Below are positions 5,420 through 31,430 of a stretch of DNA of 64,000 nucleotides, one piece after another. The stretch comes from Reyranella aquatilis (lineage in GTDB: Bacteria > Pseudomonadota > Alphaproteobacteria > Reyranellales > Reyranellaceae). The notes beneath the pieces were generated by a model. The model was not told where the DNA came from and made no database searches. It was given only the letters and a program-made list of their open reading frames with translations. The translations under genes were made by a program, and so were the position numbers. Position 1 is the stretch's first letter, and every line of letters starts with the position of its first letter. The DNA is taken from NCBI RefSeq assembly GCF_020880995.1, contig NZ_JAJISD010000001.1, positions 1,054,001 to 1,118,000 of the forward strand. The letters run 5' to 3'.

Positions 5420-5434
5420 GGCGCACTGCACAAA
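5420..5434 (-). promoter_or_regulatory. TTGTGC-NN-TGC element upstream of etfB
   Basis: Read on the minus strand this is TTGTGCAGTGCGCC, about 95 bases before the etfB start. The same TTGTGC-NN-TGC core occurs upstream of ccr and twice upstream of the first phasin. I infer a shared operator. TGC-rich sites are typical of PhaR, the PHB-responsive repressor of alphaproteobacteria, but no regulator gene lies here. Confidence 0.4.
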
Positions 5435-5443
5435 ACCGCAGGG

Positions 5444-5468
5444 TGAAAGATTTTTCCTCTATCTTTCA
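5444..5468. promoter_or_regulatory. inverted repeat between etfB and the PduO gene
   Basis: Arms TGAAAGAT and ATCTTTCA are perfect 8-base complements separated by nine bases. It lies 15 bases past the stop of the PduO gene and about 120 bases upstream of etfB. There is no T-run on the minus strand, so it is not a textbook terminator. It may be an operator or a weak transcript end. Confidence 0.3.
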
Positions 5469-5482
5469 ACAGCTTGGAGTGA

Positions 5483-6079
5483 TTAGCGCGAGCCGCCCGG
5501 CACCCAGAGCACATCTGCCGCGCCATTGTCGTTGAGCCGGCGGGCCAACACGAACAGGTGGTCGGACAGGCGATTGACGTACTTGATCGCCTCCGGGTTG
5601 ATCGTCTGCTCGGCGGCAAGACGCGTCATGCACCGTTCGGCGCGCCGCGAAACGGTGCGCGCCAGATGCAGCCACGACGCCGCCTCGCTGCCGCCCGGCA
5701 GAATGAAAGACTTGAGCGGCTGCAACTCGGCATTCATCGCATCGATCTCGCGCTCGAGGCGCTCGACCTGCGAGGGAACCATGCGCAGCGCCTGTTCGTC
5801 GCGTTTGGCCTTGCCTTCGGGCGTGCAGAGATCGGCGCCCAGGTCGAACAGATCGTTCTGGATGCGGCCCAGCATCGCGTCGGCCTCGGCCAATCGCGGA
5901 TCGGACGCGCCCGCACGCGCGATGGCATTGCGCGCAAGACCGATCACCGAGTTCGCCTCGTCAGTGGTGCCATAGGCTTCGACACGGATGTCGTGCTTGG
6001 GCACGCGTTCGCCACGGCCGAGCGACGTCTGTCCGGCGTCGCCGCCGCGCGTGTAGATGCGATTGAGGGTGACGGCCAT
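5483..6079 (-). CDS. pduO: cob(I)yrinic acid a,c-diamide adenosyltransferase, PduO type
   Basis: A 198-residue PduO-type ATP:corrinoid adenosyltransferase, which makes adenosylcobalamin in the cytosol. The N-terminal YTRGGDAGQTSLGRGERVPK ATP-binding motif is at residues 9-28, and the conserved helical motif with Arg and Glu (RTVSRRAERC) is near 143. Adenosylcobalamin is needed by the ethylmalonyl-CoA and methylmalonyl-CoA mutases that work with Ccr and Mcd, so the proximity makes sense. It ends the minus-strand run that starts at the Bug receptor and is three bases after the HIG1 gene. Pairing with a HIG1 gene is, as I recall, frequent in alphaproteobacteria. Confidence 0.92.
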   Translation of the reverse strand: MAVTLNRIYTRGGDAGQTSLGRGERVPKHDIRVEAYGTTDEANSVIGLARNAIARAGASDPRLAEADAMLGRIQNDLFDLGADLCTPEGKAKRDEQALRMVPSQVERLEREIDAMNAELQPLKSFILPGGSEAASWLHLARTVSRRAERCMTRLAAEQTINPEAIKYVNRLSDHLFVLARRLNDNGAADVLWVPGGSR

Positions 6080-6082
6080 CTG

Positions 6083-6295
6083 CTAGCTCCTGCTCGCGAA
6101 GTACCAAAGGAGTATCAGCACGACCGTGAGCAGTTGCAGCCGCACGCGCCACCACATGAACTTGTTGCTGCGGCGGCTGCCCTCGATGTTGGCATCCTGA
6201 TTCTGACTCATGTTGATCAGGCCAGCGAACAGCGTGCCGAGCGTGGCGAACGCCGACACCAGCACGAGGACGAAAAGGACATTGGCGAGGGTCAT
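6083..6295 (-). CDS. HIG1-domain twin transmembrane protein
   Basis: A 70-residue protein with two transmembrane helices (about residues 3-27 and 52-67) and, before the second helix, WWRVRLQLL, which resembles the HIG1 signature (R-x-x-x-Q type). HIG1 proteins are small inner-membrane proteins; mitochondrial relatives act on respiratory complexes III and IV. It lies three bases before the PduO gene and six bases after the amine oxidase gene. A clear paralogue with the same start MTLAN and end ASR-S/D is at 14210-14422. Confidence 0.75.
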   Translation of the reverse strand: MTLANVLFVLVLVSAFATLGTLFAGLINMSQNQDANIEGSRRSNKFMWWRVRLQLLTVVLILLWYFASRS

Positions 6296-6301
6296 GGGGA
6301 T

Positions 6302-7729
6302 TTATCCCGCATTGTGCCGGCCCGCGCCAGTACGGGCGCCAGCCCACGGCCGCGCGTCGCGCGACGCATCGGTTCCGGTGGCGAGACGGAAAATCGTCTC
6401 GGCGGTCTGCTCGGCCGACCAAAGGGCCGCATGCACGGTCCCATACTCGACCGGCTCGGTCGCCTCCCCCGCGAAGAACACACGGTTGCCGAGCGGTCGC
6501 GCGTGGGTGGTGCAGTCGTCGGGATCGCTGCCGACGCCGGGATAGGAATAGCCGCCGCGCGACCAGGGATCGCTCAGCCAGCGCGGGAAGACCATCGCCT
6601 CCGGCTCGGGAATGTCGTCGCCGAACATCGCGCGCAATGAACGCATCGCGACCGCCGTCACCTCCGCGTCGCTCGCCTCGCGGTCGAGACGGATGGCGGT
6701 ATGGCCGTTGCAGAAGCTCAGCAGGATCGGCAGGCCGGTCTCCTGCTCATGGCTCACCCAGGTGTTGAAGCCGCCACGCTGCTGCGGGGAATCGGGCAGC
6801 CGCCCAAACCATTTGGGTTGGTCCGGCCAGAAGCGCCGCGGAAAGCGGAGATAGAGCTTGCCCAGGATTCCCGCCCCGTAGCCCAGGCGGCCGATGGCAA
6901 TACGCTGCCGCTCCGGCGGCGCCGGGTCCAGCGCCGGCAAGCCTGCGCGCAGCAGCCCAACCGGCACGGCGATCACCGCGCGATCCGCTTCGATGCGCTG
7001 GCCGTCCTGCAGGATTGCCGTCACGCCGTTGCCTCTCCAGAGTACCCGCTCAACAACGGCGCCGGTACGGATGTCGAGGCCGGGCGCGACATCGTCGATC
7101 AGTTGTTTGTAGCCGCCCCGGGGCTGCGCGTTGCGCTCGAGACCTTCGGTCGGAAACCACTCCTCCGCGGCCACGGCGTCCCACGGCGCGCTCTGCACGC
7201 CCTCGCTCATCTCCACGAACGTGGCCACGACCAACCGGTCGATCTCGGGCAGCCACGATGCGGTGAGCAGCGGCTCGACGGCCTCGCGCACGGAGATCGA
7301 GCGAGGGCCGCGAACGCGCGTCAGCGCCTTGCTCTTCCAGGTCGCCCATTCGATGGCGGCCTTGAAGGCCATCCGTCCCATCACCGCGCGGCGTCGCTGG
7401 CCTTCACGGGTCGGCGAGGTCGCGCGCCTGTCGATCAGCAGACGCTCGCCCTGCGACTCGACCAGGTCGATCCCCAGTTTCCCGCACCACAGGGTGAGCG
7501 GATTGCCATCCACGCCATGCACCCAGGAGCCGCCGAGGTCGACCGGCGCGCCGACGCGATCGTCGGTCCAGGTCCGGCCGCCGACGCGCCCGCGCGCTTC
7601 CAGCACGCTGACGGTGAAACCGGAATCGTGCAGAAGCCTCGCCGCGACCAGTCCGGCCATCCCGGCGCCCACGACGACGACGCGCTCGCCGTTGCCCGTC
7701 CCCATCGACCAGGAACCAGTCCGGCTCAT
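6302..7729 (-). CDS. FAD-dependent amine oxidase family protein
   Basis: A 475-residue flavoprotein of the monoamine oxidase/polyamine oxidase superfamily. The dinucleotide motif VVVGAGMAGLVAARLL is at about residues 18-33, followed by LEARGRVGGRTW and LGGSWVHG. The C-terminal FAD motif FFAGEATEPVEYGTVHAA is present. Substrate cannot be assigned: amines, polyamines or amino acids are all possible. The start codon overlaps the stop of the HAD gene by four bases (ATGA), implying translational coupling. The next gene, HIG1, follows after six bases. Confidence 0.85.
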   Translation of the reverse strand: MSRTGSWSMGTGNGERVVVVGAGMAGLVAARLLHDSGFTVSVLEARGRVGGRTWTDDRVGAPVDLGGSWVHGVDGNPLTLWCGKLGIDLVESQGERLLIDRRATSPTREGQRRRAVMGRMAFKAAIEWATWKSKALTRVRGPRSISVREAVEPLLTASWLPEIDRLVVATFVEMSEGVQSAPWDAVAAEEWFPTEGLERNAQPRGGYKQLIDDVAPGLDIRTGAVVERVLWRGNGVTAILQDGQRIEADRAVIAVPVGLLRAGLPALDPAPPERQRIAIGRLGYGAGILGKLYLRFPRRFWPDQPKWFGRLPDSPQQRGGFNTWVSHEQETGLPILLSFCNGHTAIRLDREASDAEVTAVAMRSLRAMFGDDIPEPEAMVFPRWLSDPWSRGGYSYPGVGSDPDDCTTHARPLGNRVFFAGEATEPVEYGTVHAALWSAEQTAETIFRLATGTDASRDARPWAGARTGAGRHNAG

Positions 7730-8382
7730 ACCCGCGGCGCCCAGGCCAGCATCGGCAGCGATGACATCGAATCGAAAGTCCGGCCGCCGGCGGCGCGCAG
7801 TGCCTCGGGGTCGCTGTGCGTGGCACCGACATAGGCCAGGGCGCGCATGCCCGCGGAACGCGCCGCCTGGATGCCCGGCAGCGAATCCTCGACCACCGTG
7901 CAGCCGAACGGTTGCTCGTCCATCTGGATGGCGGCGTGAAGGAAGAGATCGGGGAACGGTTTGCCGCGCGAGACCTGGCTCGCGCTGAAGATGCGCCCCT
8001 CGAAGCGTGACCAGAGGCCGGTGATTCCGAGCGTCACGCGCATCTTGTCGAGGCCGCCCGAACTCGCGACGCAGGTCGCGATCCCCGCCGCCTCGATCGC
8101 GTCGATCGCCTCGACGACGCCCGGAACGGCCTGGAGCGGCGCATCGCGGAAAGCCTGCAACGTGTCCGCCTGCAGCCGGTCGACGAAGTCGGACGGCAGC
8201 GCCCGGCCGAGTTCGCCCTCGACGATCTCCACGCAGGATTTCATCGAACGCCCCATCAGGCGGCGCATCGTCTCCTCGACCGTCCAGTCGAGGCCCTCGC
8301 GCTCGAGCGCACAGGCAAAGCAGGTGTTAGCGAGGGGCTCGCTGTCGACCAGCACCCCGTCGCAATCGAATATGACCAGCAC
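7726..8382 (-). CDS. HAD-IA family phosphatase
   Basis: A 218-residue haloacid-dehalogenase superfamily hydrolase of the beta-phosphoglucomutase/phosphoglycolate phosphatase type. Motif I FDCDGVLVDSEP (Asp5 and Asp7) is intact, motif II is VASSGG, and the acidic motif IV is VVEDSLPGIQAARSAGM. It probably dephosphorylates a small metabolite. It overlaps the downstream amine oxidase by four bases and starts 12 bases after the dioxygenase stop, so it is part of the same transcription unit. Confidence 0.85.
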   Translation of the reverse strand: MLVIFDCDGVLVDSEPLANTCFACALEREGLDWTVEETMRRLMGRSMKSCVEIVEGELGRALPSDFVDRLQADTLQAFRDAPLQAVPGVVEAIDAIEAAGIATCVASSGGLDKMRVTLGITGLWSRFEGRIFSASQVSRGKPFPDLFLHAAIQMDEQPFGCTVVEDSLPGIQAARSAGMRALAYVGATHSDPEALRAAGGRTFDSMSSLPMLAWAPRV

Positions 8383-8394
8383 CCGCCAGAGATA

Positions 8395-9279
8395 TCAGTA
8401 AGGCTTGTCGCCTGCCACCGTGACCCGGTTGCCGCTGCGGGTGTGCGGCCAGTAGTCCCACATCGCGCGATGCTGGACGCAGCGATTGTCCCAGAAGGCG
8501 ATGGAGTTCTCCTGCCAGCGGAAACGGCACTGGAAGAGCGGGTTTTCCATGTGTTCGTACAGGTAACGCAGGATCGCATCGCTCTCGTCGCGCGGCAGCC
8601 CGACCAGCGAGCGGGTGAAGCCACGATTGACGTAGAGCGCCTTCTTGCCTGTCACCGGATGGGTGCGCACCACCGGGTGGATGGCGCGCGGATACTCCGG
8701 CTTGTCGACGACGTTGTAGTTCTTGTAGAGGCCGCGATAGACCGATTCGCCGTCGTGGACCGCGGTCAGCCCGTCGAGATAGGCCTTCATGCGGTCCGAC
8801 AACGCCTCGTAGGCGGCATACATGCTGGCGAACAGCGTGTCGCCGCCCTTGGGCGGGCACTTCTTGATGTAGAGGATGCTGCCCATCGGCGGCTCGAGGT
8901 CGCAGCTCACGTCGGTGTGCCAGCCCTCGCCGTTGGCGCGCGGCGAATCCTTGTCGGCGTGGATGATCATCAGCTCGGGCTTGCCGGGTTCGCTCGGCGC
9001 GGCGGGATGCGTGTGCAGGTCGCCGAACAGGCGGCCGAACGCCAGGTGCTGGTCCTGGGTGATGTGCTGGTCGCGGAAGAAGATCACGAGATTCTCCGCC
9101 AGGGCACGGTGGATCTCGTCCTGCTGTCGGTTGGACAGCGGCTGGCTGAGGTCGATGCCGCTGATCTCGGCGCCGAGGATCGGCGTCAGCTTGTCGAGGG
9201 TGATGGTCTCGTACGGTGCGCTCTCGTCGGCGGTGTGCCGATAGCGCGGTCCGGCGTTGGCGTTCAGGGATCCAGACAT
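8395..9279 (-). CDS. TauD/TfdA family 2-oxoglutarate dioxygenase
   Basis: A 294-residue non-haem Fe(II)/2-oxoglutarate dioxygenase. The facial triad is visible as GWHTD (His121, Asp123) and the distal CVQHRA (His270), with the 2-oxoglutarate-binding arginine in PHTRSGNR (281-285). Family members hydroxylate taurine, alkylsulfates, phenoxyacetates or similar carbon-sulfur and carbon-oxygen compounds, releasing sulfite, sulfate or phenol. It follows the Bug receptor by eight bases, so receptor and enzyme probably handle the same compound. A sulfatase gene lies beyond the divergent IclR regulator, compatible with organosulfur use, though this is inference. Confidence 0.88.
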   Translation of the reverse strand: MSGSLNANAGPRYRHTADESAPYETITLDKLTPILGAEISGIDLSQPLSNRQQDEIHRALAENLVIFFRDQHITQDQHLAFGRLFGDLHTHPAAPSEPGKPELMIIHADKDSPRANGEGWHTDVSCDLEPPMGSILYIKKCPPKGGDTLFASMYAAYEALSDRMKAYLDGLTAVHDGESVYRGLYKNYNVVDKPEYPRAIHPVVRTHPVTGKKALYVNRGFTRSLVGLPRDESDAILRYLYEHMENPLFQCRFRWQENSIAFWDNRCVQHRAMWDYWPHTRSGNRVTVAGDKPY

Positions 9280-9287
9280 GGGTTCTC

Positions 9288-10256
9288 CTATTCGACCTTG
9301 ATGTTTGCGCGACGAATGATCTGCCCCCAGCGCTCCTTCTCGGCGCTGGCGAAGGCGGCGAACTCGGCCGGTCGCATGAGCTTCGGCGTGCCGCCCAGCG
9401 CCGCCAGGCGCTCGACGACTTCCGGCATGGCAGACACGGCGTAGAGGTCGGCATTGATGCGGTCGACGATCTCCGCCGGCGTTCCCTTCGGTGCGTAGAA
9501 CCCCGTCCAGGTCGTCAGCAGGACCTCGGGCAGCCCCGCTTCCGCCGCCGTCGGCATGGCCGGCACGGCCGCATAGCGTTCGCTGTCGGTCACGAACAAT
9601 CCCTTGAGCGCGCCGCGGTCCATGGCGATCTTGGCGTTGACCGTATCGATCATCATGAAGGTGAGAAGGCCGCTCTGCACGTCCGGGATGGCCTGTGGGT
9701 TGCTCTTGTAGCCGACATAGACCGCGTCCACGCCGGCCGCCATTTTGTACAGCTCCGACGCGACGCGGGCGGGCAAGGCGCCGGCGCCGTAATTGTGCTT
9801 GCCGGGCTCGGCCTTGAGCTTCGCCGTCAGTTCGGCCGCCGTGTTGATCGGGCTGTTGCGGTCCACCAGCAGCACGAAGGGCGACGTCCCCATGCGCGAG
9901 ATCGGCGCGAAGTCCGCGATCGGATCGTAGGGCAGCTTGTCGTAGATCGCTGGATTGACGACCTGCGTCATCGCCGAGGTCGCGAACAACGTCAGACCAT
10001 CCGGCTTGGCACGCGCGACGGATTCGGCCGCCGGAATGCCGTTGCCGCCGCCCTTGTTGTCGATCACGACCGGCTGGCCCCAGATCGCCGAGAGTCGCTC
10101 GGCATAGACGCGGGCACTGATGTCGGTCGCCGCACCCGCCGGAAACGGCACGACCATGGTGACGCGGCCGGCCGGAAACTTCTTCGCGCGCCCGATGGCG
10201 GGAACCGCAAAGGCCGCAACGCCCATCGCCTTGGCGAACTGTCGTCTGCCGAACAT
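9288..10256 (-). CDS. Bug/TctC family tripartite tricarboxylate receptor
   Basis: A 322-residue periplasmic solute-binding protein. The N-terminus MFGRRQFAKAMGVAAFAVPA is a signal peptide with a twin-arginine-like start. The mature protein shows the Bug hallmarks: a VTMVVPFPAGAATDISAR-type loop, a QPVVIDNKGGGNG segment and AKPDGLTL. Bug proteins usually bind carboxylates. No TctA/TctB membrane genes are nearby, so it is an orphan receptor, as most are in such genomes. It heads the minus-strand run down to the PduO gene and faces the IclR gene across about 100 bases. Confidence 0.88.
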   Translation of the reverse strand: MFGRRQFAKAMGVAAFAVPAIGRAKKFPAGRVTMVVPFPAGAATDISARVYAERLSAIWGQPVVIDNKGGGNGIPAAESVARAKPDGLTLFATSAMTQVVNPAIYDKLPYDPIADFAPISRMGTSPFVLLVDRNSPINTAAELTAKLKAEPGKHNYGAGALPARVASELYKMAAGVDAVYVGYKSNPQAIPDVQSGLLTFMMIDTVNAKIAMDRGALKGLFVTDSERYAAVPAMPTAAEAGLPEVLLTTWTGFYAPKGTPAEIVDRINADLYAVSAMPEVVERLAALGGTPKLMRPAEFAAFASAEKERWGQIIRRANIKVE

Positions 10257-10356
10257 GTTTCCTCGCCGTTTCTTATGGGCGCGACGCTAGACGCTTTCGC
10301 GACGCCCCGCCGGTCCTAAGTCGACAGAGTCCGTATTACGGAATATCGTTCCCGGC

Positions 10357-11082
10357 ATGCCGATCGAGCCCGTCCGCCGCAGTTTCGCGATTCTGGAGGC
10401 GTTGAGCCGCCGTCCGCACGGCACGATCGCGACGCTCGCGGAGGAAACGGGCCTGCCCCGCCCCACCGTCGCCCGCCTGCTCGGCACCCTGGTGGAACTG
10501 GGATACGCGACCCAGGTGTCGCGGCTGATCGGTTATCGGCTCACCGACCGCGTGCTGGGGCTGGCGCAAGGGATACGCTTCATCGATCGATTCGTGGACG
10601 CGGCGGCGCCGCACATGCAACGCTTCACGCAGGAACACGGATGGCCGCTCTATCTCGGCTCGATCAGCCATCGCGCGATCACCATCCGCTATTCGACGGC
10701 CGCCGAGAGTCCGATGTCGTTCGAACGCACTGCCCTCTATCGGCGCAGCCCGATTTTGTCCGGAGCGCTCGGTCGCGCCTGGCTCGCTTTCTCCGCGGAC
10801 GAAGAGCGCCGCGCGATCCTGCGCGATCTCGGCGTGCGCTACGACGCGAAACTGGCGGCCGTCTTCGCCCGCATCAGGCGCGACGGGCATGCGTTCGCGA
10901 TCCTGCCGCGATCGGGACGCCTCCAGGGCATCGCCGTCGCCATCCGCAAGCGCGACCGCGTGCTGGGCTGTATCTCGATGCGATTCGTGCGCTCGGCGAT
11001 GAGCGAGGCCGAGGCCGGCGCCCGCTTCGGCGCACCGCTCAATGCGTTGGCACGCGCCATCGCCACGGACGCCGCAAGCTAG
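10357..11082 (+). CDS. IclR family transcriptional regulator
   Basis: A 241-residue regulator with an N-terminal winged helix-turn-helix (residues 8-58, ATLAEETGLPRPTVARLLGTLVELGY) and a C-terminal IclR effector domain. IclR proteins sense small metabolites and control the adjacent catabolic genes. It is divergent from the Bug-TauD operon, and the 100-base gap between them probably holds both promoters and its operator; I see no clean palindrome there. The sulfatase gene follows on the same strand after 30 bases. Confidence 0.88.
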   Translation: MPIEPVRRSFAILEALSRRPHGTIATLAEETGLPRPTVARLLGTLVELGYATQVSRLIGYRLTDRVLGLAQGIRFIDRFVDAAAPHMQRFTQEHGWPLYLGSISHRAITIRYSTAAESPMSFERTALYRRSPILSGALGRAWLAFSADEERRAILRDLGVRYDAKLAAVFARIRRDGHAFAILPRSGRLQGIAVAIRKRDRVLGCISMRFVRSAMSEAEAGARFGAPLNALARAIATDAAS

Positions 11083-11112
11083 TAGCGTGCGCCAAAATCG
11101 ACTGGAGGAAAC

Positions 11113-12642: not shown

Positions 12643-12667
12643 AAACTGCGCGCACTGTCCCGTGCCG

Positions 12668-13707: not shown

Positions 13708-13750
13708 TCTCAGGCTGCCGTACGAACGCTCGATCCGCGAACTCCCCGCG

Positions 13751-14053: not shown

Positions 14054-14209
14054 TCTTTGCTCCCGGTGGACACTGAACCAATTACGCGCCGGGAGCCGCG
14101 ACGGATCACGCATGCGACATCGCAGCTCTGTCCCGCGGAAGGACTTGTCGTCAATCACCTGCGCAACCACCTGTCGGGCAACCGACCGCGGCGTCGGTCT
14201 GGAGCCCTC

Positions 14210-14422: not shown

Positions 14423-14488
14423 CGGAGTGGCAAGATCGTCCGAGGCCTGAACGACGACCGGGATCGGGCGGTCCAGGCAATATCACCC

Positions 14489-14511
14489 AGGCCCGCCCCG
14501 AGGGCGGGCCT
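14489..14511 (-). terminator. GC-rich hairpin at the end of mcd
   Basis: Arms AGGCCCGCCC and GGGCGGGCCT are 10-base perfect complements with a three-base loop, overlapping the mcd stop codon. No T-run follows on either strand, so it may slow RNA decay or act as a weak end between the convergent mcd and HIG1 transcripts. Confidence 0.4.
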
Positions 14512-16150
14512 AGTTGCGCCCCTCGATCAGGCCACGGCAGACGACCTGTGCCTGGATCTCCGCCGCGCCCTCGAAGATGTTGAGGATGCGCGCATCGCAC
14601 AGGACGCGACTGACGGGATACTCCATCGCGTAGCCGTTGCCGCCGTGGATCTGCAGCGCGTTGTCGGCATTGCTCCAGGCGACGCGCGCGGCGAGTAGCT
14701 TGGCCATGCCCGCCTCGATGTCGCAGCGCCGGTCGGAGTCCTTCTCGCGCGCGGCGAAGTAGGTGAGCTGGCGGGCGATCATGGTCTCGACCGCCATCCA
14801 GGCGATCTTCCCGGCGACGCGCGGAAAGGCGTAGAGCGGCTTGGCGAACTGGATGCGCTCCTTGGCATACCGCAGGCCGAGTTCGAGCGCGTTCTGCGCC
14901 ACACCGACGGCGCGGGCGGCGGTCTGGATGCGCGCGCTCTCGAAGGTCGCCATGAGCTGCTTGAAGCCCTGGCCCTCCTTCTCGCCCAGCAGATTGGCGG
15001 CCGGCACCTCGAACCCATCGAAGCCGATCTCGTATTCCTTCATGCCGCGATAGCCGAGGACTTTGATCTCGCCGCCACTCATGCCCTTGGCGGGGAACGG
15101 CTCGGTGTCGGTGCCGCGCGGCTTCTCGGCGAGGAACATCGACAGGCCCTGATAACCGGGCTTGGAGGCATCGCTGCGCGCCAGCAGGGTCATGATGTCG
15201 GCACGCGCTGCATGGGTGATCCATGTCTTGTTGCCGTTGATCCTGTAGGTGTCGCCGTCAAGCACGGCGCGCGTGCGCAGGCTGGCGAGATCGGAACCCG
15301 TATTGGGCTCGGTGAACACCGCCGTCGGCAGCAGCTCGCCCGACGCGATGCGCGAGAGGTACTTCTTCTTCTGCGCCTCGGTGCCGCCGGAGCGGATCAG
15401 CTCGGCCGCGATCTCCGAGCGCGTGCCGAGCGAGCCGACGCCGATATAGCCGCGCGACAGTTCTTCGGTGACGACGCACATCGCGAGCTTGCCCATGCCC
15501 AGCCCGCCCCATTCCTCGGGCACCGTGAGACCGAACACGCCGAGATCGGCCATCTGCTGCACCACCGGCAGCGGGATGAGTTCGTCGCGCAGATGCCAGC
15601 CGTGGGCGTGCGGCGCCACCTCGGTATCGACGAAGCGGCGGAACTGGCGGCGCACCTCCTCCAGTGCCTCGTCGCCCAGTTCGAGCGAACCGAAGCCGCC
15701 GGTGTCGAGACCGTCGGCGATCAGCTCGGCGATGCGGCCGCGCACCGCCGCGGTATTGGCCGCGATCAGCTTTGCGACGGCCGGAGTCTCGAGCGCGGCG
15801 CCGTCGAGGCCGAGGTCGCCGGGTCGCACGATCTCGACCTGGCTGATGGCGATGCCGCCCTTCAGCTGCGCGAGATACTCGCCATAGGCCGACTGGAGGA
15901 TGAGCTTCTCGAGTTCCCCGCCGGCCCCCGCTTCGGCCCATCGCCGCATCTGACGCAGGGCCGCGACATAGGTCGCGATCCAGGCGTAGCCGTGCGAGGC
16001 GAACTGCTCGCGTTCCAGCAGCTTGGGATCAACCTTGCCCTGCGGCGCCACAAGGCCGCGCACCGCTTCGCGCGCGGCGGTCTCATGCCGTTCGGCCGCG
16101 GCCTCGGCGTCTGCGCACAGGGAGAAAAGGTCTGGGAGGATCAAGGACAT
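14510..16150 (-). CDS. mcd: (2S)-methylsuccinyl-CoA dehydrogenase (acyl-CoA dehydrogenase family)
   Basis: A 546-residue acyl-CoA dehydrogenase with an N-terminal extension of about 150 residues before the usual domain (VRRQFRRFVDTEVAPHAHGW onward). FAD and substrate motifs are intact: TEPNTGSDLASL, NGNKTWITHA, and the C-terminal QIHGGNGYAMEYPVSR. The long N-terminal extension and the position just downstream of ccr fit Mcd of the ethylmalonyl-CoA pathway, which oxidises methylsuccinyl-CoA to mesaconyl-CoA and passes electrons to ETF. A generic acyl-CoA dehydrogenase is less likely. The start MSLILPDLFSL follows the hairpin-rich spacer. Confidence 0.85.
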   Translation of the reverse strand: MSLILPDLFSLCADAEAAAERHETAAREAVRGLVAPQGKVDPKLLEREQFASHGYAWIATYVAALRQMRRWAEAGAGGELEKLILQSAYGEYLAQLKGGIAISQVEIVRPGDLGLDGAALETPAVAKLIAANTAAVRGRIAELIADGLDTGGFGSLELGDEALEEVRRQFRRFVDTEVAPHAHGWHLRDELIPLPVVQQMADLGVFGLTVPEEWGGLGMGKLAMCVVTEELSRGYIGVGSLGTRSEIAAELIRSGGTEAQKKKYLSRIASGELLPTAVFTEPNTGSDLASLRTRAVLDGDTYRINGNKTWITHAARADIMTLLARSDASKPGYQGLSMFLAEKPRGTDTEPFPAKGMSGGEIKVLGYRGMKEYEIGFDGFEVPAANLLGEKEGQGFKQLMATFESARIQTAARAVGVAQNALELGLRYAKERIQFAKPLYAFPRVAGKIAWMAVETMIARQLTYFAAREKDSDRRCDIEAGMAKLLAARVAWSNADNALQIHGGNGYAMEYPVSRVLCDARILNIFEGAAEIQAQVVCRGLIEGRN

Positions 16151-16303: not shown

Positions 16304-16311
16304 CAAGAGTC

Positions 16312-17601
16312 TTAGTCTTCCAGCGCGTCCTCGAGGGTGCGCAGGCCGGGGCGCTTGGCCGAAACGAGCACCGCCATGTTTCCGGGCTTGTGCTGGTTCT
16401 TCCACATCTTGGTATGGGCCTTGGGAATGTCGGCCCATTCGAAGACTTCGCTCATGCACGGATCGATGCGGCGCTCGATCACCAGCTGGTTGGCCTGGCT
16501 GGCCTGCAGCAGATTGGCGAAGTGGCTGCCCTGGATGCGCTTCTGGCGCATCCAGACGAAACGCGCGTCCATGGTGAGGTTGAAGCCCGTGGTGCCGGCG
16601 CAGAACACCACCATGCCGCCGCGCTTCACGACGAAGCAGGAGACCGGGAAGGTCTGCTCGCCGGGATGCTCGAACACGAAGTCGACGTCGTTGCCCTTGC
16701 CGGTGTGTTCCCAGATCGCGCCGCCGAACTTGCGGCACTTCTTCATGTATTCGGCATAGCCCGCCTGGTCGTCGACGTCGGGAAGCTGGCCCCAGCAGTC
16801 GAAGTCGTTGCGGTTGATGACGCCGCGTGCGCCCAGCGACATCACGAAGTCCGTCTTCGACGGATCGGAGATCACGCCGATGGCGTTGGCGCCGGCCGTG
16901 GCGATCAACTGGATCGCCATCGAGCCCAGGCCGCCCGCCGCGCCCCAGACCAGCACGTTGTGGCCGGGCCGCAGGATGTGCGGGCGATGGCCGAACAGCA
17001 TGCGATAGGCGGTGGCGAGGGTGAGCGTGTAGGAGGCGCTCTCCTCCCAGGTGAGATGCAGCGGGCGCTTCATGAGCTGGCGCGCCTGCACCTTGCAGAA
17101 CTGGGCGAACGACCCATCGGGCGTCTCGTAGCCCCAGATGCGCTGGCTGGTGGAGAACATCGGATCGCCGCCGTTGCACTCCTCGTCGTCGCCATCGTCC
17201 TGGTTACAGTGGATGACGACTTCGTCTCCGACCTTCCAGCGCTTCACCTTGGCGCCGACCGCCCAGACGATTCCCGAGGCGTCCGAGCCCGCGATGTGGA
17301 ACGGCTGCTTGTGCACGTCGAACGGCGAGATCGGCAGGCCGAGGCCCGCCCAGATGCCGTTGTAGTTCACGCCGGCTGCCATCACGAGGACGAGCACCTC
17401 ATCCTCGCCGATCGCGTGCGTCGGCACGACTTCGAGCTGCATGGACTGTTCGGGCGGCCCATGGCGGTCGCGCCGGATGACCCAGGCGTACATGTTCTTG
17501 GGCACATGCCCGAGCGGCGGAATCTCGCCGACCTCGTAGAGATCCTTCTTCGGCTGGTTGGCCGTGGGATGAGGGCGAGCCGCGAAAGCGACGACGGACA
17601 T
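16312..17601 (-). CDS. ccrA: crotonyl-CoA carboxylase/reductase
   Basis: A 429-residue medium-chain dehydrogenase/reductase that reductively carboxylates crotonyl-CoA to ethylmalonyl-CoA with NADPH and CO2, the key step of the ethylmalonyl-CoA pathway. Family traits: AGVNYNGIWAGLG with the CO2-site asparagine (Asn81), IWGYETPDGSFAQF with Glu159, the VWGAAGGLGSMA nucleotide fold and the KRIQGSHFANL histidine. In the Kitasatospora enzyme the CO2 pocket is Asn, Phe-Glu and His; here the Phe position is Tyr. The gene is followed by mcd after about 160 bases. Its promoter region carries two TGC-N3-GCA elements. Confidence 0.95.
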   Translation of the reverse strand: MSVVAFAARPHPTANQPKKDLYEVGEIPPLGHVPKNMYAWVIRRDRHGPPEQSMQLEVVPTHAIGEDEVLVLVMAAGVNYNGIWAGLGLPISPFDVHKQPFHIAGSDASGIVWAVGAKVKRWKVGDEVVIHCNQDDGDDEECNGGDPMFSTSQRIWGYETPDGSFAQFCKVQARQLMKRPLHLTWEESASYTLTLATAYRMLFGHRPHILRPGHNVLVWGAAGGLGSMAIQLIATAGANAIGVISDPSKTDFVMSLGARGVINRNDFDCWGQLPDVDDQAGYAEYMKKCRKFGGAIWEHTGKGNDVDFVFEHPGEQTFPVSCFVVKRGGMVVFCAGTTGFNLTMDARFVWMRQKRIQGSHFANLLQASQANQLVIERRIDPCMSEVFEWADIPKAHTKMWKNQHKPGNMAVLVSAKRPGLRTLEDALED

Positions 17602-17612: not shown

Positions 17613-17661
17613 CTGCGTTGCAGCGAAACTATTGCTGCGAAAGCGAGAGTGCAATGCACAA
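17613..17661 (-). promoter_or_regulatory. two TGC-N3-GCA elements upstream of ccrA
   Basis: CTGCGTTGCAG lies at 17613-17623, 12 bases before the ccrA start, and GTGCAATGCAC at 17649-17659, about 50 bases before it. Both are TGC-N3-GCA inverted repeats. The outer one reads TTGTGCATTGCAC on the minus strand, matching the elements at etfB and the phasin. CTGC-N3-GCAG is close to what I recall for PhaR of Rhodobacter. The regulator itself is an inference. Confidence 0.45.
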
Positions 17662-17765
17662 AATACGAATCGGAACGATTGGCACAGTGGAAAAACAACA
17701 ATATTACCCCTGCCCTGCGGAAATCCCGCATTGCCGGCTCCCAAAAGTCGCGCCACGCTCGGCAA

Positions 17766-17781
17766 GTAAACGAGCGTTTAC
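17766..17781. promoter_or_regulatory. palindromic operator upstream of the LLM gene
   Basis: GTAAACGAGCGTTTAC has perfect 7-base arms around two central bases and ends 30 bases before the LLM start. The symmetry and size suit a TetR-type dimer. It lies in the ccrA/LLM divergent region, so it could act on either gene; CcrR of Methylobacterium, a TetR protein, activates ccr. Confidence 0.45.
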
Positions 17782-22431: not shown

Positions 22432-22533
22432 ACAGATGATCGTCAAGCCATCTGCTCCGGTCATTACCTGCCGCGTCATCGACCTCACGACCTTCCAAGC
22501 GCATTTCAGGCACATCCCGAAAGGAGGACCGTC

Positions 22534-23409: not shown

Positions 23410-23414
23410 AGCGT

Positions 23415-24206: not shown

Positions 24207-24508
24207 TCGTGCTTGCCGATGCGCGGTTCGATCCCGCCTAGACGGACGACGTCGTCGCCATCGCACGTCCGATGATCGAGGCTTCGCGTGCCGAAGCCGG
24301 CTGCGCCGGCTACGACTATGCGTTCGACATGCTCGAGCCGGGCCTGATGCGCGTGCGCGAATGGTGGAAGGACGAGCAGGCGCTGAAGGACCATTTTGCG
24401 ACGCCGCACATGGCCGTCTTCCTCAAGGCGCTGCGCGACCTGAAGCCGAAGTCGGTCACGATCAGATGCCACGAGCTCGGCCCGGAGCGACCGATGCCGA
24501 ACGCATAG
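24200..24508 (+). pseudogene. ABM-domain monooxygenase interrupted by an in-frame TAG
   Basis: An ATG with upstream GAGAGG starts MLIVLADARFDPA, then TAG at 24239-24241, then the same frame continues TDDVVAIARPMIEASRAEAG to a stop at 24508. Together these make a complete antibiotic-biosynthesis monooxygenase domain (about 102 residues), including YDYAFDMLEPGLMRVREWWKDE and a C-terminal DLKPKSVTIRCHEL-like strand. A single C-to-T change of a glutamine CAG would explain the stop. It may be a true lesion or a base-call error. A shorter product could start at the ATG at 24272. Confidence 0.7.
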
Positions 24509-24583
24509 TCCAAAACGTTTCTGAACCGAGCGTGCCGCCGAGCCTCTGAAGGCGGCGCCGCCAGCTGGCGCATGGGAATGCGC

Positions 24584-25915: not shown

Positions 25916-26245
25916 CGCCCCTTCTCCCGACTCAAATACGAACGAAGGCTACAGGACCCTGGCGGGCCTCAGGCCTCGATACATCGCGCGATGCGCGCGG
26001 CGGGAAGAAAGATCTGCGACATGATCCCAATCTATACGATGGGTTCCTGCTGCGCAATTCGCGGCCCGTGGCAACACTTTCCAGGTCACATGCGGAAGCC
26101 CGGCGGGGCCGGGCGCATAACGGACGATCGGCAGGTCAGCCGGCGAAATCGTGGCGTGGCCTCGGGTAGGACCTTGGCGGCCAGTCGTTGGCGGGTCAGG
26201 CCTGCTCCGCTAGTCTTGCGGCAATTGCGGAGGAAACGAACGACG
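25916..26245. other. 330-base gap upstream of cysS and the dienelactone hydrolase
   Basis: No convincing gene. A GC-rich hairpin with arms GCCCGGC and GCCGGGC and a GGG loop lies at 26098-26114, with no T-run. The region presumably holds the divergent promoters of cysS and the plus-strand hydrolase; I cannot pick them out with confidence. Confidence 0.4.
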
Positions 26246-26962
26246 ATGCGCACCGAAAGTATCGAGTACCGCGCCGATGGCGTCCGCATGATCGGCCAGT
26301 ATGTGGTCGACGACAGCAAGCCCGGGCGTCGTGGCGGAGTCCTCGTCTGCCACGAGGGTCCGGGCCTCACCGACCATACGAAGAAGATCGCGGCGCGCCT
26401 CGCAGCCCTCGGCTATGCGGCCTTCGCCATGGACTATCACGGCGACGGCAAGCCGCTTGCAGATCCCAGCCAGACCATGGCGCGGCTGCAGCCCTGGATG
26501 GCCGATCCGACAGGCATCCGCAGCCGTGCCCGGGCGGCGCTGGATGTACTGAAGGAGCAGAAGGAGGTTGATCCCGCGCGGCTCGCCGCCATCGGATACT
26601 GCTTCGGCGGCACCACCGCGCTGGAGATCGCGCGCAGCGGCGCCGACGTGAAGGCGGTCGTCGGTTTTCATTCCGGCCTCGCGACGGCGCGGCCGCAGGA
26701 TGCGGTGAACATCAAGGCCAGGGTGCTGGTCTGCATCGGTGCGGACGATCCGATCATTCCTCCCGAGCAGCGCGCTGCCTTCGAAGCCGAGATGAAGAGC
26801 GGGGGCGTCGACTGGCGGCTGCAGCTCTATGGCGGCGCCGGCCACAGCTTCACCAACCCGGCCGCCGATTCGCGCGGCATGAGGGGGTTCTTCTACCACG
26901 CGGCCACCGATCGCCGCTCGTGGAATGCCATGATCGAGTTGTTCGACGAGACACTGAACTAG
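26246..26962 (+). CDS. dienelactone hydrolase family protein
   Basis: A 238-residue alpha/beta hydrolase of the DLH family. The nucleophile is Cys in IGYCFGGTTA (Cys119) rather than Ser, as in true dienelactone hydrolases. The acid is in CIGADDPIIPP and the histidine in GGAGHSFTNP. It would open a lactone or cleave an activated ester. GCGGAGGAAA precedes the ATG, confirming the start. A Bug receptor gene follows after 28 bases. Confidence 0.88.
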   Translation: MRTESIEYRADGVRMIGQYVVDDSKPGRRGGVLVCHEGPGLTDHTKKIAARLAALGYAAFAMDYHGDGKPLADPSQTMARLQPWMADPTGIRSRARAALDVLKEQKEVDPARLAAIGYCFGGTTALEIARSGADVKAVVGFHSGLATARPQDAVNIKARVLVCIGADDPIIPPEQRAAFEAEMKSGGVDWRLQLYGGAGHSFTNPAADSRGMRGFFYHAATDRRSWNAMIELFDETLN

Positions 26963-26990
26963 GCTTCGGAAAAACAAGGGAGGAAACGAA

Positions 26991-27965
26991 ATGAAGCGCC
27001 GTCAACTGATCGTCCCCGGAGCGGCCGCGCTGGTCGCCCCGTCCATCGCCCGCGCGCAGGGCAAGTTCCCCGACAGGCCGATCCGCTTCGTCATCCCGTT
27101 CGCGCCGGCCGGCCCCACCGACATCATCGGTCGCATGGCGGCGGAGAAGCTCAGCGCCATCCTGGGCCAGCAGGTCATCGTCGACAACAAGGCGGGTGCT
27201 GCCGGCTCGATCGGCGCGGTCGACGTGAAGAACGCCAAGCCCGACGGCTACACCTTGCTGTGCGCGCCCTCCTCCACGCACGCCATCAATCCGACGGCCT
27301 TCGTGAAGCCGGCCTACGACGCCGTGAAGGACTTCACACCCATCGCGTCGATCTGCGTCAATCCGCTGGTCCTCGTTGCGCGCATGGACATGCCGGACAC
27401 GGTGATGGGCCTGGTCGAATTGATGAAGAAGAACCCCGGCAAGTATTCGTACGGGTCATCGGGGGCGGGCTCGATCATCAACCTGGCCGGCGAGTACTTC
27501 AAACGCGAGGTCGGGGGCATGGACGTCGAGCACATCCCCTACAAAGGGTCGGCACCGGCGCTGCAGGACATGATGGCGGGCCAGACCGCCTGGATGTTCG
27601 AGACATTCAGCACGACGCTTCAGCTTCACAAGGCCGGCAAGGTTCGCATCCTGGCCTACGCCTACTCCAAGCGCGCGCCCGTCGCGCCCGAAATTCCAAC
27701 GATGATCGAGGCCGGCGTGAAGGGCTACGAGGCCTATACCTTCAATCTCATCCTTGGCCCGGCAAACGTGCCGCAACCCGTCGTTGACGTCCTCGACCAG
27801 GCGGCGCGCCGGGTGATGAAGGATCCGGCCACCATCAAGTTCCTGGAAGACATCGCCGCCGTGCCGACGACCGACACCACGCCTCAACTCACGGCGAAGT
27901 TCATCAACGACGAGATCGCGAAATGGGCGCCGGTGATCCGGGCCGCCGGGATCAGGATCGAATAG
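26991..27965 (+). CDS. Bug/TctC family tripartite tricarboxylate receptor
   Basis: A 324-residue periplasmic receptor with signal MKRRQLIVPGAAALVAPS (twin-arginine-like) and a cleavage site near ARAQG. Mature motifs are IRFVIPFAPAGPTDIIGR, QQVIVDNKAGAAGSIGA, AKPDGYTLL and GKYSYGSSGAGS. Ligand is probably a carboxylate. It is preceded by the dienelactone hydrolase, so it may take up the compound that enzyme processes. GGGAGG stands before the ATG. Confidence 0.9.
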   Translation: MKRRQLIVPGAAALVAPSIARAQGKFPDRPIRFVIPFAPAGPTDIIGRMAAEKLSAILGQQVIVDNKAGAAGSIGAVDVKNAKPDGYTLLCAPSSTHAINPTAFVKPAYDAVKDFTPIASICVNPLVLVARMDMPDTVMGLVELMKKNPGKYSYGSSGAGSIINLAGEYFKREVGGMDVEHIPYKGSAPALQDMMAGQTAWMFETFSTTLQLHKAGKVRILAYAYSKRAPVAPEIPTMIEAGVKGYEAYTFNLILGPANVPQPVVDVLDQAARRVMKDPATIKFLEDIAAVPTTDTTPQLTAKFINDEIAKWAPVIRAAGIRIE

Positions 27966-27972
27966 AGCCCGC

Positions 27973-28395
27973 TCAGCGATACCCCGCCGGGGGCGGCACG
28001 TTCGCGGGCGCCGGTGCGATCGGCGCCTGCTGCGGCATCTGGGCCGGCGTCGGCAGGTTCATGCTGTTCGGACCGGTCGAGATACCGTCCGTCGACGCCA
28101 CGCGGCCCGGGGCATTCGCCCCGGTGTTGCTGATGTAATAACCGGCGACTGCGTTGGAATTGTCGCCCGCGGTCTTGGCGGGCACATCGATGATACCGAC
28201 GCGGGCACCGCTCTTGTCGATCCGGTAGCCCTCGGGATCCATTGCAAAGCCCTCATTGTCGACCCGAAGTCCGCCTGGCTGCACCCGATACGCGGGCGGC
28301 GGCGTGGTCTCGCTATACAGCGGCTGGGGCAGCGGGTCGCAGGCTGCGAGAAGCGACACACCAAGCGCCGCACCCACCAAAGCTCTCGCAGCCAT
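27973..28395 (-). CDS. lipoprotein of unknown function
   Basis: A 140-residue lipoprotein: signal MAARALVGAALGVSLLAAC with a lipobox LLAAC at about residues 15-19. The mature part contains VDNEGFAMDPEGYRIDKSGAR, a motif of the type G-x-x-x-D-x-x-G-x-R-x-D-x-x-G also seen at the end of the neighbouring lipoprotein, and a Pro/Ala-rich tail. The ATG at 28395 is preceded by an in-frame TTG that I do not use. Function unknown; likely outer-membrane or periplasmic, ten bases downstream of its neighbour in the same strand. Confidence 0.65.
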   Translation of the reverse strand: MAARALVGAALGVSLLAACDPLPQPLYSETTPPPAYRVQPGGLRVDNEGFAMDPEGYRIDKSGARVGIIDVPAKTAGDNSNAVAGYYISNTGANAPGRVASTDGISTGPNSMNLPTPAQMPQQAPIAPAPANVPPPAGYR

Positions 28396-28404
28396 CAAAC
28401 CCCC

Positions 28405-29019
28405 TCATGGTGTGGTCGACTGCGGGCTGATGATGTTGCCGTTGCGGTCGAGCCGGTTTCCCTGGCCATCATAGCGGAAACCATACTCGTCGCGGAAGGC
28501 CTCAACGCCTGCCGGCGGGGTGGGCTGATAGGCGACCGGCGGGGTGCTGTAGGTAGTGGTCGAGACGGTCGTGGCCGGTCCGTAATAGGTCGGGGCTGCC
28601 GGGGCGGTCTGATAGTAGGTCGTGGTCTGGGAGGGGTAATAGACGCTCCCCGGTGCCGGAACCGGCGTCACGGCGGCCTGGTCGCGGTAGCGCCGGGCAT
28701 CGATCTCTCGGCCCACACAGCGATCGTACATCGTGCTGCCGGGCGTGAGCCCGTAGGAATAGCAGGCGTTCCGGGCGTCGGCGTCGAGGCTGGCGACCGT
28801 GTACCCGACGGGGACCCGCCCCTGGGCACGGGCCGCGGCTTCCCGCGAGACGCAGCGATTGTAGTTGTCCGTGCCCGCGCGGAAACCATAGTCCAGGCAG
28901 GCCTGCTCAGAACTGCTCACCGGATAGGCACGAGCGGTGCGGGTTTCGTAGGTAGTGCTGCTACAGGCGGCGGCCGAGAGGCCCAAGGCGGCCACGGCCA
29001 GGATCTTCGAAGCGCTCAT
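28405..29019 (-). CDS. lipoprotein with Cys-x-D/S-Y-G repeats
   Basis: A 204-residue lipoprotein with lipobox SAAAC (Cys19). Two repeats of about 25 residues follow: ACLDYGFRAGTDNYNRCVSRE and ACYSYGLTPGSTMYDRCVGRE, each with two cysteines about 15 residues apart, probably forming one disulfide each. A Thr/Tyr/Pro-rich linker then leads to EYGFRYDGQGNRLDRNGNII, the G-x-R-x-D repeat shared with the next gene. Function unknown. The pair of lipoproteins probably form one transcription unit. Confidence 0.65.
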   Translation of the reverse strand: MSASKILAVAALGLSAAACSSTTYETRTARAYPVSSSEQACLDYGFRAGTDNYNRCVSREAAARAQGRVPVGYTVASLDADARNACYSYGLTPGSTMYDRCVGREIDARRYRDQAAVTPVPAPGSVYYPSQTTTYYQTAPAAPTYYGPATTVSTTTYSTPPVAYQPTPPAGVEAFRDEYGFRYDGQGNRLDRNGNIISPQSTTP

Positions 29020-29093
29020 GAGGATGTCCTCCAGGTAAATTCCTGGGGGCCAGAACGGGAAACAGCGCCGCGGGTTGCAGGTTGCCTGCGCGA

Positions 29094-30781
29094 TCAGGCC
29101 CGCTGCTTGATCACCCCGTCGCGCAATTCGCGGCGCAGGATCTTGCCGACATTCGTCTTGGGAAGCTCCTGGCGGAACTCGATGACCTTCGGCCGCTTGT
29201 AGCCCGTCAGCTCATCGTGACAGTAGGCCATCAGCGCTTCCTGCGTGAGCGCAGGATCCTTCCGGACCACGAACAACATCACGGCCTCACCGGAATTCTT
29301 GTCCGGCACCCCGATGGCGGCGCATTCCAGCACGCCCGGATGCGCCGCCACGACCGCCTCGACCTCGTTGGGATAGACGTTGAAGCCGGACACGAGGATC
29401 ATATCCTTCTTGCGATCCACGATCTTCGTGTACCCGCGCGCATCCATGATGCCGACGTCACCCGACTTGAAGAAGCCGTCGGGAGTCATGACCTTCGCGG
29501 TCTCCTCCGGCTGCTGCCAGTAATCGCGCATGACCTGCGGCCCGCGAATCGCGATCTCCCCGGCCTGCCCCAGGGGCACATCCTGGCCGCCATCGTCGAG
29601 GATGCGGATCTCGACGTTGGGCAGCGGCAGGCCGATCGTACCGGTATAGGCTTCCGAATCGGTCGGATTGCAGGTCACTCCTGCAGACGTTTCGCTGAGC
29701 CCGTAGCCTTCACAGATAGGACAGCCGGTGACCGCGAGCCACTTTTTCGCGACGGCCTCCTGCACCGCCATGCCGCCGCCGTTGGAGATGACCAGCTCGG
29801 AGAAGTCGAGCTTCGCGAAGTCGGCGTTGTTGGCCAGACCGTTGAACAGCGTGTTCACCGCCGGGAAGATGTTGATCCGGTACTTGGCCAGCTCCTTGAC
29901 CGTGCCCGCGAGATCGCGCGGGTTGGGAATCAGGATATTGAGCGCGCCGGTGCGCATGCCGAGCAGGCCGCAGGTGACGAAGGCGAAGACATGGTAGAGC
30001 GGCAGAGCGCAGACGATGGTGGTCTGGCCGCTGATCTTCCGGCGGTTGAGGCCCGGCTGCATCCACGCTTCTGACGCCAGCAGGTTGGCGACAAGCGTGC
30101 GATGAAGCAGGGTCGCGCCCTTCGAGACCCCCGTCGTGCCGCCGGTGTATTGCAGTACCGCGACGTCGTCGGGGCCGAGCTGCGGCTTCGCGAGCGTCAG
30201 CCGGCGACCCGCGCTCACGGCGTCGTTGAACGTGACATGGCCCGGCAGCGACCAGGCCGGTACCATCTTACGCACGTTGCGGACGACGAAGTTGACGATC
30301 AGTCCCTTGGGGAAGCCCAGCAGGTCGCCCATCGACGCCACCACGACATGCTTGACGCCGGTCTCCGCGACGACGTGCTGCAGGGTCGTCGCGAAGTTCT
30401 CGAGGATGACGATGGCTTCCGCGCCGGAATCCTTCAGCGGTGCTCGAGTTCGCGCGCCGTGTAGAGCGGATTGACGTTCACGGCGATGAAGCCCGCGCGC
30501 AGGACGGCCGCCACGGCGACCGGATACTGCAGCACGTTCGGCATCATGATGGCCACGCGCGCGCCGCGCTTCAGGCCCCTGCCCTGCAGCCACGCGCCCA
30601 GCGCCTGCGACAGTGAATCGATCTCGCCGAAGGTCAGGGCCTTGTCCATGCAGACATAGGCCTTGCGATCGCGATACTTCGAGAAACTCTCCTCGAACAG
30701 GGTCACGACGCTGGCATAGGCGGTCGGATCGATGTCCGACGGCACGCCCGGCGGATAATTCTTGAGCCAGAAGCGGTCCAT
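29094..30781 (-). pseudogene. fadD: long-chain acyl-CoA ligase, frameshifted
   Basis: An AMP-forming acyl-CoA synthetase in two frames. The 5' part (30781-30437) encodes MDRFWLKNYPPGVPSDIDP, FGEIDSLSQALGAWL and NVNPLYTARELEH, then stops. The rest, from LKDSGAEAIVILENFATT to the C-terminal NVGKILRRELRD, is in the next frame. It includes YTGGTTGVSKGA (ATP loop), YGLSETSAG and DRKKDMILVSGFNVYP. Adding one base at about 30438-30439 (expected codons for His-Gln-Leu) would restore 562 residues, the normal FadD size. It may be a true null or an assembly error. Acyl-CoA would feed the WS/DGAT nearby. Confidence 0.85.
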
Positions 30782-30829
30782 GTCGTTCCTCCCAGAACGT
30801 CGTTGAACGCACTATACCGTCGGCGCACG

Positions 30830-30859
30830 AAAAAAGGCCCGTCCTCGCGGACGGGCCTT
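30830..30859 (-). terminator. intrinsic terminator downstream of the phasin
   Basis: On the minus strand an 11-base stem (AAGGCCCGTCC pairing with GGACGGGCCTT) with a four-base loop runs into six T. It lies 22 bases after the phasin stop and ends that transcript before the fadD start. Confidence 0.88.
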
Positions 30860-30881
30860 CGAACTCGAAGCCTGGGGCAGT

Positions 30882-31331
30882 TTAGGCCGCAGTCTTGGTG
30901 AACTTCTCGATGCGCTCCTGCACGGGGCGGACGACGTCGTCGGCCGACTTGCGGACGAACGCGCCGAGGTCCTGCGCCTGGGCGATGCGGGTCTCGAGAC
31001 GGCCGCGCCAGTACTTGGCCGAGACGTCGAACGCCTCGAGCGGCGACTTGGCCGAGAGGAAGTCACGCATGGCGGCGAAGCCGGCGTCGGCGTCTTCCTT
31101 GGCGACGTCGAGGAGCTTGAGGCTGGCCTTGGTGGCGCCATCACGAACCTGGGCGTACTGGGTGTTCAGCTCCTCCGAGGCGCTCTGCGCGGCCTGGCTG
31201 ATCTTCTCGAAGCCCTCGGTGGCCTTGCGGACGCCGATCTGGGCGAACTCGCGGACGCGCTCGCCGGCGGCCTTGGTGGTCTCGTTGGCGTGCTCGATGA
31301 CGTTCTCGATGGCAGCGGTCTGGGTGGTCAT
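30882..31331 (-). CDS. phasin family protein
   Basis: A 149-residue amphipathic helical protein. MTTQTAAIENVIEHANETTKA, FEKISQAAQSASEELNTQYAQ and the C-terminal FVRKSADDVVRPVQERIEKF are typical of the phasin_2 family that coats PHB granules. The start chosen is the ATG giving this N-terminus; an upstream frame adds 27 residues without support. Its promoter contains two TTGTGCG-Y-TGC elements, and it has its own terminator, so it is probably strongly expressed as a single gene. Confidence 0.88.
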   Translation of the reverse strand: MTTQTAAIENVIEHANETTKAAGERVREFAQIGVRKATEGFEKISQAAQSASEELNTQYAQVRDGATKASLKLLDVAKEDADAGFAAMRDFLSAKSPLEAFDVSAKYWRGRLETRIAQAQDLGAFVRKSADDVVRPVQERIEKFTKTAA

Positions 31332-31395
31332 GGCGTAAGGTCCTGCAATTGGTTGGTGTGGTAACAAATGGCGATGGGGCGTATATGGGATCGCC

Positions 31396-31430
31396 ATTGT
31401 GCGTTGCAACATAAATTTGTGCGCTGCGGC
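31396..31430 (+). promoter_or_regulatory. two direct TTGTGCGYTGC repeats upstream of the phasin
   Basis: ATTGTGCGTTGCAAC at 31396-31410 and TTTGTGCGCTGCGGC at 31416-31430 repeat at exactly 20 bases, two helical turns. They are 65-100 bases upstream of the phasin start on the opposite reading strand. The first contains TGC-GTT-GCA. This is the expected kind of site for PhaR, the PHB-granule-sensing repressor of phasins. Confidence 0.5.

Follow-up and report, generated by a model that had tools for sequence, protein, structure and literature searches.

Predicted PhaR operators at ethylmalonyl-CoA pathway, electron transfer flavoprotein and granule genes of Reyranella aquatilis and their recurrence in Alphaproteobacteria

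Introduction

The operator sites of PhaR, a regulator that binds to polyhydroxybutyrate (PHB) granules, have been described in several species. In Sinorhizobium meliloti the site reads WNWD2NYGCRNYGCRNH2WNW (PMC12542648). The consensus from Bradyrhizobium diazoefficiens is TGCRNYGCASMA, and the footprinted sites of its phaP1 gene include TGCGACGCACAA, which reads TTGTGCGTCGCA on the opposite strand (PMC6201568). For Rhodobacter sphaeroides, the consensus CTGCNNNGCAG (CTGCN3GCAG; Chou and Yang 2010, as cited in PMC12542648) has been given. In S. meliloti and B. diazoefficiens, PhaR represses the majority of the genes that it binds and that carry a box, and this repression is relieved when PHB holds the regulator on granules (PMC12542648, PMC6201568). 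Here we describe a 64-kb stretch of the Reyranella aquatilis genome (contig NZ_JAJISD010000001.1, positions 1,054,001 to 1,118,000), referred to as the window, in which a first-pass annotation had noticed a short shared element, TTGTGCNNTGC (TTGTGC-NN-TGC), in the promoters of etfB, ccrA and a phasin gene. The element had been tentatively attributed to a local PhaR regulon for carbon storage. Our comparisons identify it, with good support, as a putative PhaR operator, and this operator recurs far beyond the window.

Results

The shared element resembles characterised PhaR sites

All 17-mers of the window were scored with a symmetric PhaR matrix of 17 positions, which was built from efficiently gel-shifted S. 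meliloti sites and from B. diazoefficiens sites and contains no sequence from the Reyranella genome under study. The highest-ranking site precedes the phasin gene (21.0 bits), followed by those before etfB (18.7 bits) and ccr (16.4 bits). With a matrix from the S. meliloti sites alone, the same sites take the first four places in the window. Phasin box 1 and the ccr box match the full PhaR consensus TKSTGCRNYGCA exactly, and the etfB box and phasin box 2 are off at one position (G for A). Identification of the shared element as a PhaR operator is well supported by this sequence comparison. With respect to the first-pass annotation, its PhaR reading is strengthened by the literature matrix, by the phaR gene in the genome and by boxes at other pha genes, while its interpretation as a whole is only partly borne out.

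The element has four exact matches in the window, at 5423-5433(-), 17651-17661(-), 31397-31407(+) and 31417-31427(+). These are the sites which had been reported before, and there are no others. All four are intergenic; intergenic DNA makes up about 7% of the window. Dinucleotide shuffles of the window (n=100) gave a mean of 0.36 matches and a maximum of 2. When only the intergenic segments were shuffled (n=2000), the mean was 0.034 and the maximum again 2.

Genes preceded by the boxes

The gene identities proposed initially could be confirmed by domain matches. The ccr gene (ccrA; 16312..17601, minus strand) codes for crotonyl-CoA carboxylase/reductase (TIGR01751, 611 bits, cut-off 379), and its product is 94-98% identical to Ccr of named Reyranella records. 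Its box, TTTGTGCATTGCACTCT (17646..17662, minus strand, 16.4 bits), is centred 53 bp upstream of the start codon. The TGC-N3-GCA repeat that had been pointed out before this gene is present directly upstream of it: CTGCGTTGCAG (17613..17623) adjoins the ccr ribosome-binding site, matches the R. sphaeroides consensus exactly and is a second candidate PhaR box, with 9.0 bits. Downstream of ccr follows mcd (14510..16150, minus strand), coding for methylsuccinyl-CoA dehydrogenase; the best match of its product in the Protein Data Bank is 6es9 (E 7e-216), and the next is 8ciw, titled '(2S)-methylsuccinyl-CoA dehydrogenase'.

A perfect TetR-type palindrome, GTAAACGAGCGTTTAC, lies between ccr and a divergent gene for a luciferase-like monooxygenase (17766-17781). 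Of 7 other Reyranella ccr promoters, 5 contain it in the form TAAACGNNCGTTTA, and the near-identical GTGAACGCTCGTTTAC is found before phaR (L109:7667). Possibly this is the site of a second regulator common to ccr and phaR.

The etfB gene (4577..5326, minus strand; PF01012, E 7e-43) codes for the beta subunit of electron transfer flavoprotein (ETF), and its box, TTTGTGCAGTGCGCCAT (5418..5434, minus strand, 18.7 bits), is centred 100 bp upstream of the gene start. It is followed by etfA for the alpha subunit (3640..4575, minus strand; PF00766/PF01012) and by a gene for an hbd-like 3-hydroxyacyl-CoA dehydrogenase (2746..3618, minus strand; PF02737/PF00725). The gaps are 1 base between etfB and etfA and 21 bases between etfA and the hbd-like gene. 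The two etf genes probably form one operon, of which the hbd-like gene is the probable third member. Directly upstream of this operon is a gene for a PduO-type cobalamin adenosyltransferase (5483-6079), an enzyme that makes the cofactor of Ecm.

Two boxes precede the phasin gene (30882..31331, minus strand; PF09361, Phasin_2, E 6.5e-15): ATTGTGCGTTGCAACAT (31396..31412, plus strand, 21.0 bits) and, 20 bp from it, the intergenic TTTGTGCGCTGCGGCGA (31416..31432, plus strand, 12.5 bits). They occupy a gap (31396-31562) which is common to the divergent WS/DGAT acyltransferase gene (wax ester/triacylglycerol synthase; 31562..33016, plus strand; TIGR02946, 461 bits; PF03007). This gene is a possible second target of the same two boxes, and PHB and neutral-lipid storage might therefore share a switch.

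PhaR boxes elsewhere in the genome

The genome-wide view consists of two pattern searches and the matrix scoring of selected stretches, so that weaker boxes elsewhere escape. PhaR itself is encoded (TIGR01848, 148 bits, cut-off 109; PF07879, E 5e-30), and the promoter of phaR carries a box of 12.7 bits. Another phasin gene, on contig C25, has upstream boxes of 22.8, 9.9 and 18.5 bits which are 30 bp apart. One phaZ gene, on contig C22, has an upstream box of 17.2 bits, and the other a weaker one (12.6 bits) that overlaps the gene start. A near-perfect palindromic box of 20.7 bits is located 57 bp upstream of a gene for a 659-aa mutase. As this protein scores below the cut-off for methylmalonyl-CoA mutase, and as 50 other genomes contain two sets of relatives (about 65-80% and about 40% identical, of which we take the second to be methylmalonyl-CoA mutase), we call the gene ecm. 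Predicted boxes in the host genome thus mark ccr(-mcd), ecm and etfBA-hbd besides phasin, phaZ and phaR genes. The proposal of a local regulon does not hold: the boxes at phaR, the other phasin gene, phaZ and ecm lie elsewhere in the genome, and their recurrence across the class likewise rules out a purely local system.

Further boxes were encountered. Three strong ones (18.5, 16.8 and 15.5 bits) are found at L231:1700-1900 (C12:192249-192368), before a gene for a 390-aa protein with only a weak cupin match. Two boxes 20 bp apart, arranged as in the phasin promoter, occur at L235:1930-1980 (C28:155446-155466), before a gene for a 134-aa DUF1127 protein; this may be a small protein associated with granules that has so far gone unrecognised. 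A box of 15.2 bits (L232:1908, C12:439907) separates a thiolase-domain gene from a divergently oriented gene for a metallo-hydrolase. The near-perfect palindromic box ATTGTGCACTGCACAAG (L111:7016, C1:267015) precedes dus and then a gene for an NtrB-like histidine kinase. A PhaR site is likewise reported for nifR of B. diazoefficiens (PMC6201568), which hints that PHB may feed into nitrogen regulation. A PhaC-like protein (partial PhaC_N, class III-like) with a possible N-terminal extension is encoded divergently from phaR (L109:7781-9265); its gene is distinct from the main phaC at C1:435187.

Conservation across Alphaproteobacteria

Across Alphaproteobacteria, promoters with a box of at least 14 bits were counted and compared by Fisher test with regions that precede other genes of these loci. 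Here and in the further samples below, the sampling favours relatives of the query, and congeneric species are not independent of one another. Boxes were found in 58 of 73 ccr promoters (10 of 226 controls, p 5e-37), 21 of 30 ecm promoters (3 of 54, p 6e-10), 12 of 26 etfB promoters (0 of 58, p 9e-8) and 24 of 29 phasin promoters (2 of 41, p 9e-12), so that the control regions of these four comparisons are boxed in 0-6% of cases. For phaR promoters the counts are 13 of 30 and 0 of 26. Among the ccr loci most similar to the query, 75 of 80 have a box of at least 12 bits. The etfB box is present in all 30 Reyranella loci and in 19 of 20 further regions from Reyranellales, other genera included; class-wide, a box of at least 14 bits is found at 14 of 28 etfB loci and at none of 784 control stretches.

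Spaced trinucleotide pairs (spacers 0-15) were also searched for in an unsupervised manner, with no PhaR input. The core of the box, GCA-N2-GCA / TGC-N3-GCA, came out as the top dyad for ccr (p ~1e-54), ecm, phasin and phaR promoters. PhaR was detected in 49 of 50 ccr-bearing genomes, the exception being a metagenome assembly which may be incomplete; with this distribution, a correlation between lack of the box and lack of PhaR is uninformative. Among plasmid-borne ccr genes, that of Ruegeria TM1040 has a box and that of Paracoccus denitrificans a weak one. Of seven actinobacterial ccr genes, one from Rhodococcus reaches 14.0 bits and the others at most 6.6.

Paired boxes in phasin promoters of other genomes (L302-L331) show preferred spacings near 21, 31-35 and 56-61 bp. 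This suggests binding on one face of the DNA, or looping.

Discussion

A proposed link between storage and acetyl-CoA assimilation

The substrate of Ccr, crotonyl-CoA, derives from 3-hydroxybutyryl-CoA, which also feeds PHB, and Ecm and Mcd act next; Mcd is an acyl-CoA dehydrogenase that passes its electrons to ETF. Control of these operons by a PHB sensor would thus determine how much carbon is stored and how much is assimilated. The first-pass annotation had described the genes as acting on PHB granules or on the flow from acetyl-CoA to butyryl-CoA, and the latter is imprecise: Ccr yields ethylmalonyl-CoA, and ETF is most simply connected through mcd, directly after ccr. We consider it likely that PhaR operators are present at granule genes and also at ccr-mcd, ecm and etfBA-hbd, and that these genes are under repression titrated by PHB. 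The identity of the box by sequence, its intergenic position, its conservation and the presence of phaR are the observed basis of this proposal. When PHB is low, free PhaR would sit on the boxes and repress; when PHB accumulates, granules would hold PhaR and the boxed operons would be derepressed. Boxed in this Reyranella and in many Alphaproteobacteria are promoters of phasin, phaZ and phaR genes and, in the ethylmalonyl-CoA pathway, the operons for the steps from C4 to C5 (ccr-mcd, ecm), as well as that for ETF (etfBA-hbd). Granule proteins would be derepressed together with a pathway which takes its acetyl-CoA at the branch point shared with PHB, acetoacetyl-CoA/3-hydroxybutyryl-CoA. PhaR binding, repression as its effect and a response to PHB are inferred, and repression is proposed because it is the fate of most bound box genes in the two rhizobia named above.

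The recurrence of the box suggests that stored carbon may directly tune the ethylmalonyl-CoA pathway. Somewhat less firmly, we think it probable that PhaR is a widespread controller of this pathway in Alphaproteobacteria, with granule titration setting the expression of ccr-mcd, ecm and ETF and thereby coupling storage to the assimilation of acetyl-CoA. As known regulators of the pathway, RamB (Paracoccus) and CcrR (Methylorubrum) are isolated cases among Alphaproteobacteria; the conserved PhaR box at ccr and ecm points to a candidate regulator and to its signal, the PHB granule. If true, this would explain how 3-hydroxybutyryl-CoA and crotonyl-CoA are divided between storage and biomass, which is relevant to the production of PHB and of dicarboxylic acids.

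Several observations weigh against the proposed control by PhaR. In the host genome, neither the phaC promoter, scored with the PhaR matrix, nor a candidate pair of lyase and mesaconyl-CoA hydratase genes has a box. S. meliloti phbC is likewise reported to lack one (PMC12542648). Only about half of the class-wide etfB sample is boxed and, in line with this, the top ten dyads of etfB promoters in the unsupervised search do not include the box core. No box was found at the plasmid-borne ccr genes in the Methylobacterium bullatum, Methylocystis, Rhizobium, Bradyrhizobium and Burkholderia records. The S. meliloti guaB promoter has a box which PhaR did not bind (PMC12542648), and the text on the phaR transcriptome of Methylorubrum extorquens (PMC6520949) names changes of neither ccr nor ecm. 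Finally, within the same genomes, the boxes differ in their centre, which is C/G in 45 of 53 phasin boxes and A/T in 39 of 70 ccr and 16 of 25 ecm boxes (p 5e-6 and 4e-5), and the ccr box is asymmetric relative to the direction of the gene, being oriented nTTnTGCAnTGCAAAAn with a directional GCAAAA arm.

Alternative explanations

That short GC-rich words match by chance would fit the bare 11-mer, which is not over-represented in the whole genome (6.0 Mb; 24 matches against 20 for the reversed control), so that the word by itself proves little. However, 18 of the 24 matches are intergenic, the window has four intergenic matches where 0.03 are expected, and the element is conserved across genera; location and conservation rule out chance, to which we attach practically no probability. 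The full consensus, with 100 matches genome-wide against 29 for its control, is over-represented. The first-pass annotation had named lack of intergenic bias and pha promoters without sites as evidence that would tell against a PhaR regulon; the matches are mostly intergenic, and phasin, phaZ and phaR genes are boxed. The difference between box centres, together with the directional arm of the ccr box, could also mean that there are two readers, with PhaR acting on phasin, phaZ and etfB and another regulator of similar TGC-N3-GCA half-site logic, for example one that senses acyl-CoA, acting on ccr and ecm. This seems fairly unlikely to us, because the identical core dyad leads in all four promoter sets (ccr, ecm, phasin and phaR) and because A/T-centred sites are among those that S. 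meliloti PhaR shifts efficiently (Table 3 in PMC12542648). An A/T centre may thus mean lower affinity and an ordered release. The ScfR/RamB/PccR type is reported to have two near-identical boxes with an 18-bp spacer; the dyad analysis, in which no such pair came first, was limited to spacers of 0-15.

The sign of regulation might also be opposite, so that free PhaR activates ccr, ecm and etf and the accumulation of PHB lowers the pathway. In B. diazoefficiens, pdhA and pckA have been proposed to be activated by PhaR, and activated genes carry box-like sites (PMC6201568). Being single and oriented, the ccr box would be in keeping with an activator. Scans of the three window regions for sigma-70 promoters found no -35/-10 elements, so that the position of the box does not tell repression from activation. 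As the well-bound boxed promoters of S. meliloti and B. diazoefficiens mostly belong to repressed genes, we regard activation as unlikely, though it deserves some consideration.

Comparison with known systems

CcrR of Methylorubrum extorquens is a TetR family activator of ccr. It shares transcriptional control of ccr with the system proposed here and differs in its family and its site; given the TetR-like palindrome at 17766-17781, CcrR-like control and PhaR could coexist at Reyranella ccr. RamB of P. denitrificans, an ScfR-type regulator of acetate assimilation, also affects the expression of ccr, ecm and mcd, which is raised upon its deletion. Its two boxes with an 18-bp spacer, however, are located at the glyoxylate-cycle operon, and it senses CoA thioesters rather than PHB (PMC10370305).

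The PhaR (AniA) regulon of S. meliloti has in common with Reyranella the YGCRNYGCR box with T/A-rich arms, two boxes in phasin promoters and a synthase gene, phbC, without box (PMC12542648). As proposed here, phasins and depolymerase are repressed and central carbon genes are included, but ccr, ecm and etf go unmentioned in the main text, and Reyranella adds the ethylmalonyl-CoA pathway and ETF. The regulon of B. diazoefficiens has similar footprinted sites (TGCGACGCACAA/TTGTGCGTCGCA, consensus TGCRNYGCASMA) and targets phasins, phaZ, cyo, exo, pdhA, pckA and others; etf is found in neither text (PMC6201568, PMC10888616) and ccr not in that of 2024. R. sphaeroides PhaR, with which the second element before Reyranella ccr shares an exact CTGCNNNGCAG match, is known for phasin and PHB genes, as far as the cited account goes. 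In the open-access literature, to which our search was confined, we came across no account of ccr, ecm or etf being controlled by PhaR. While PhaR boxes and pleiotropic PhaR regulons are already known, the predicted membership of ccr, ecm and etf is new, and its recurrence across the class is notable.

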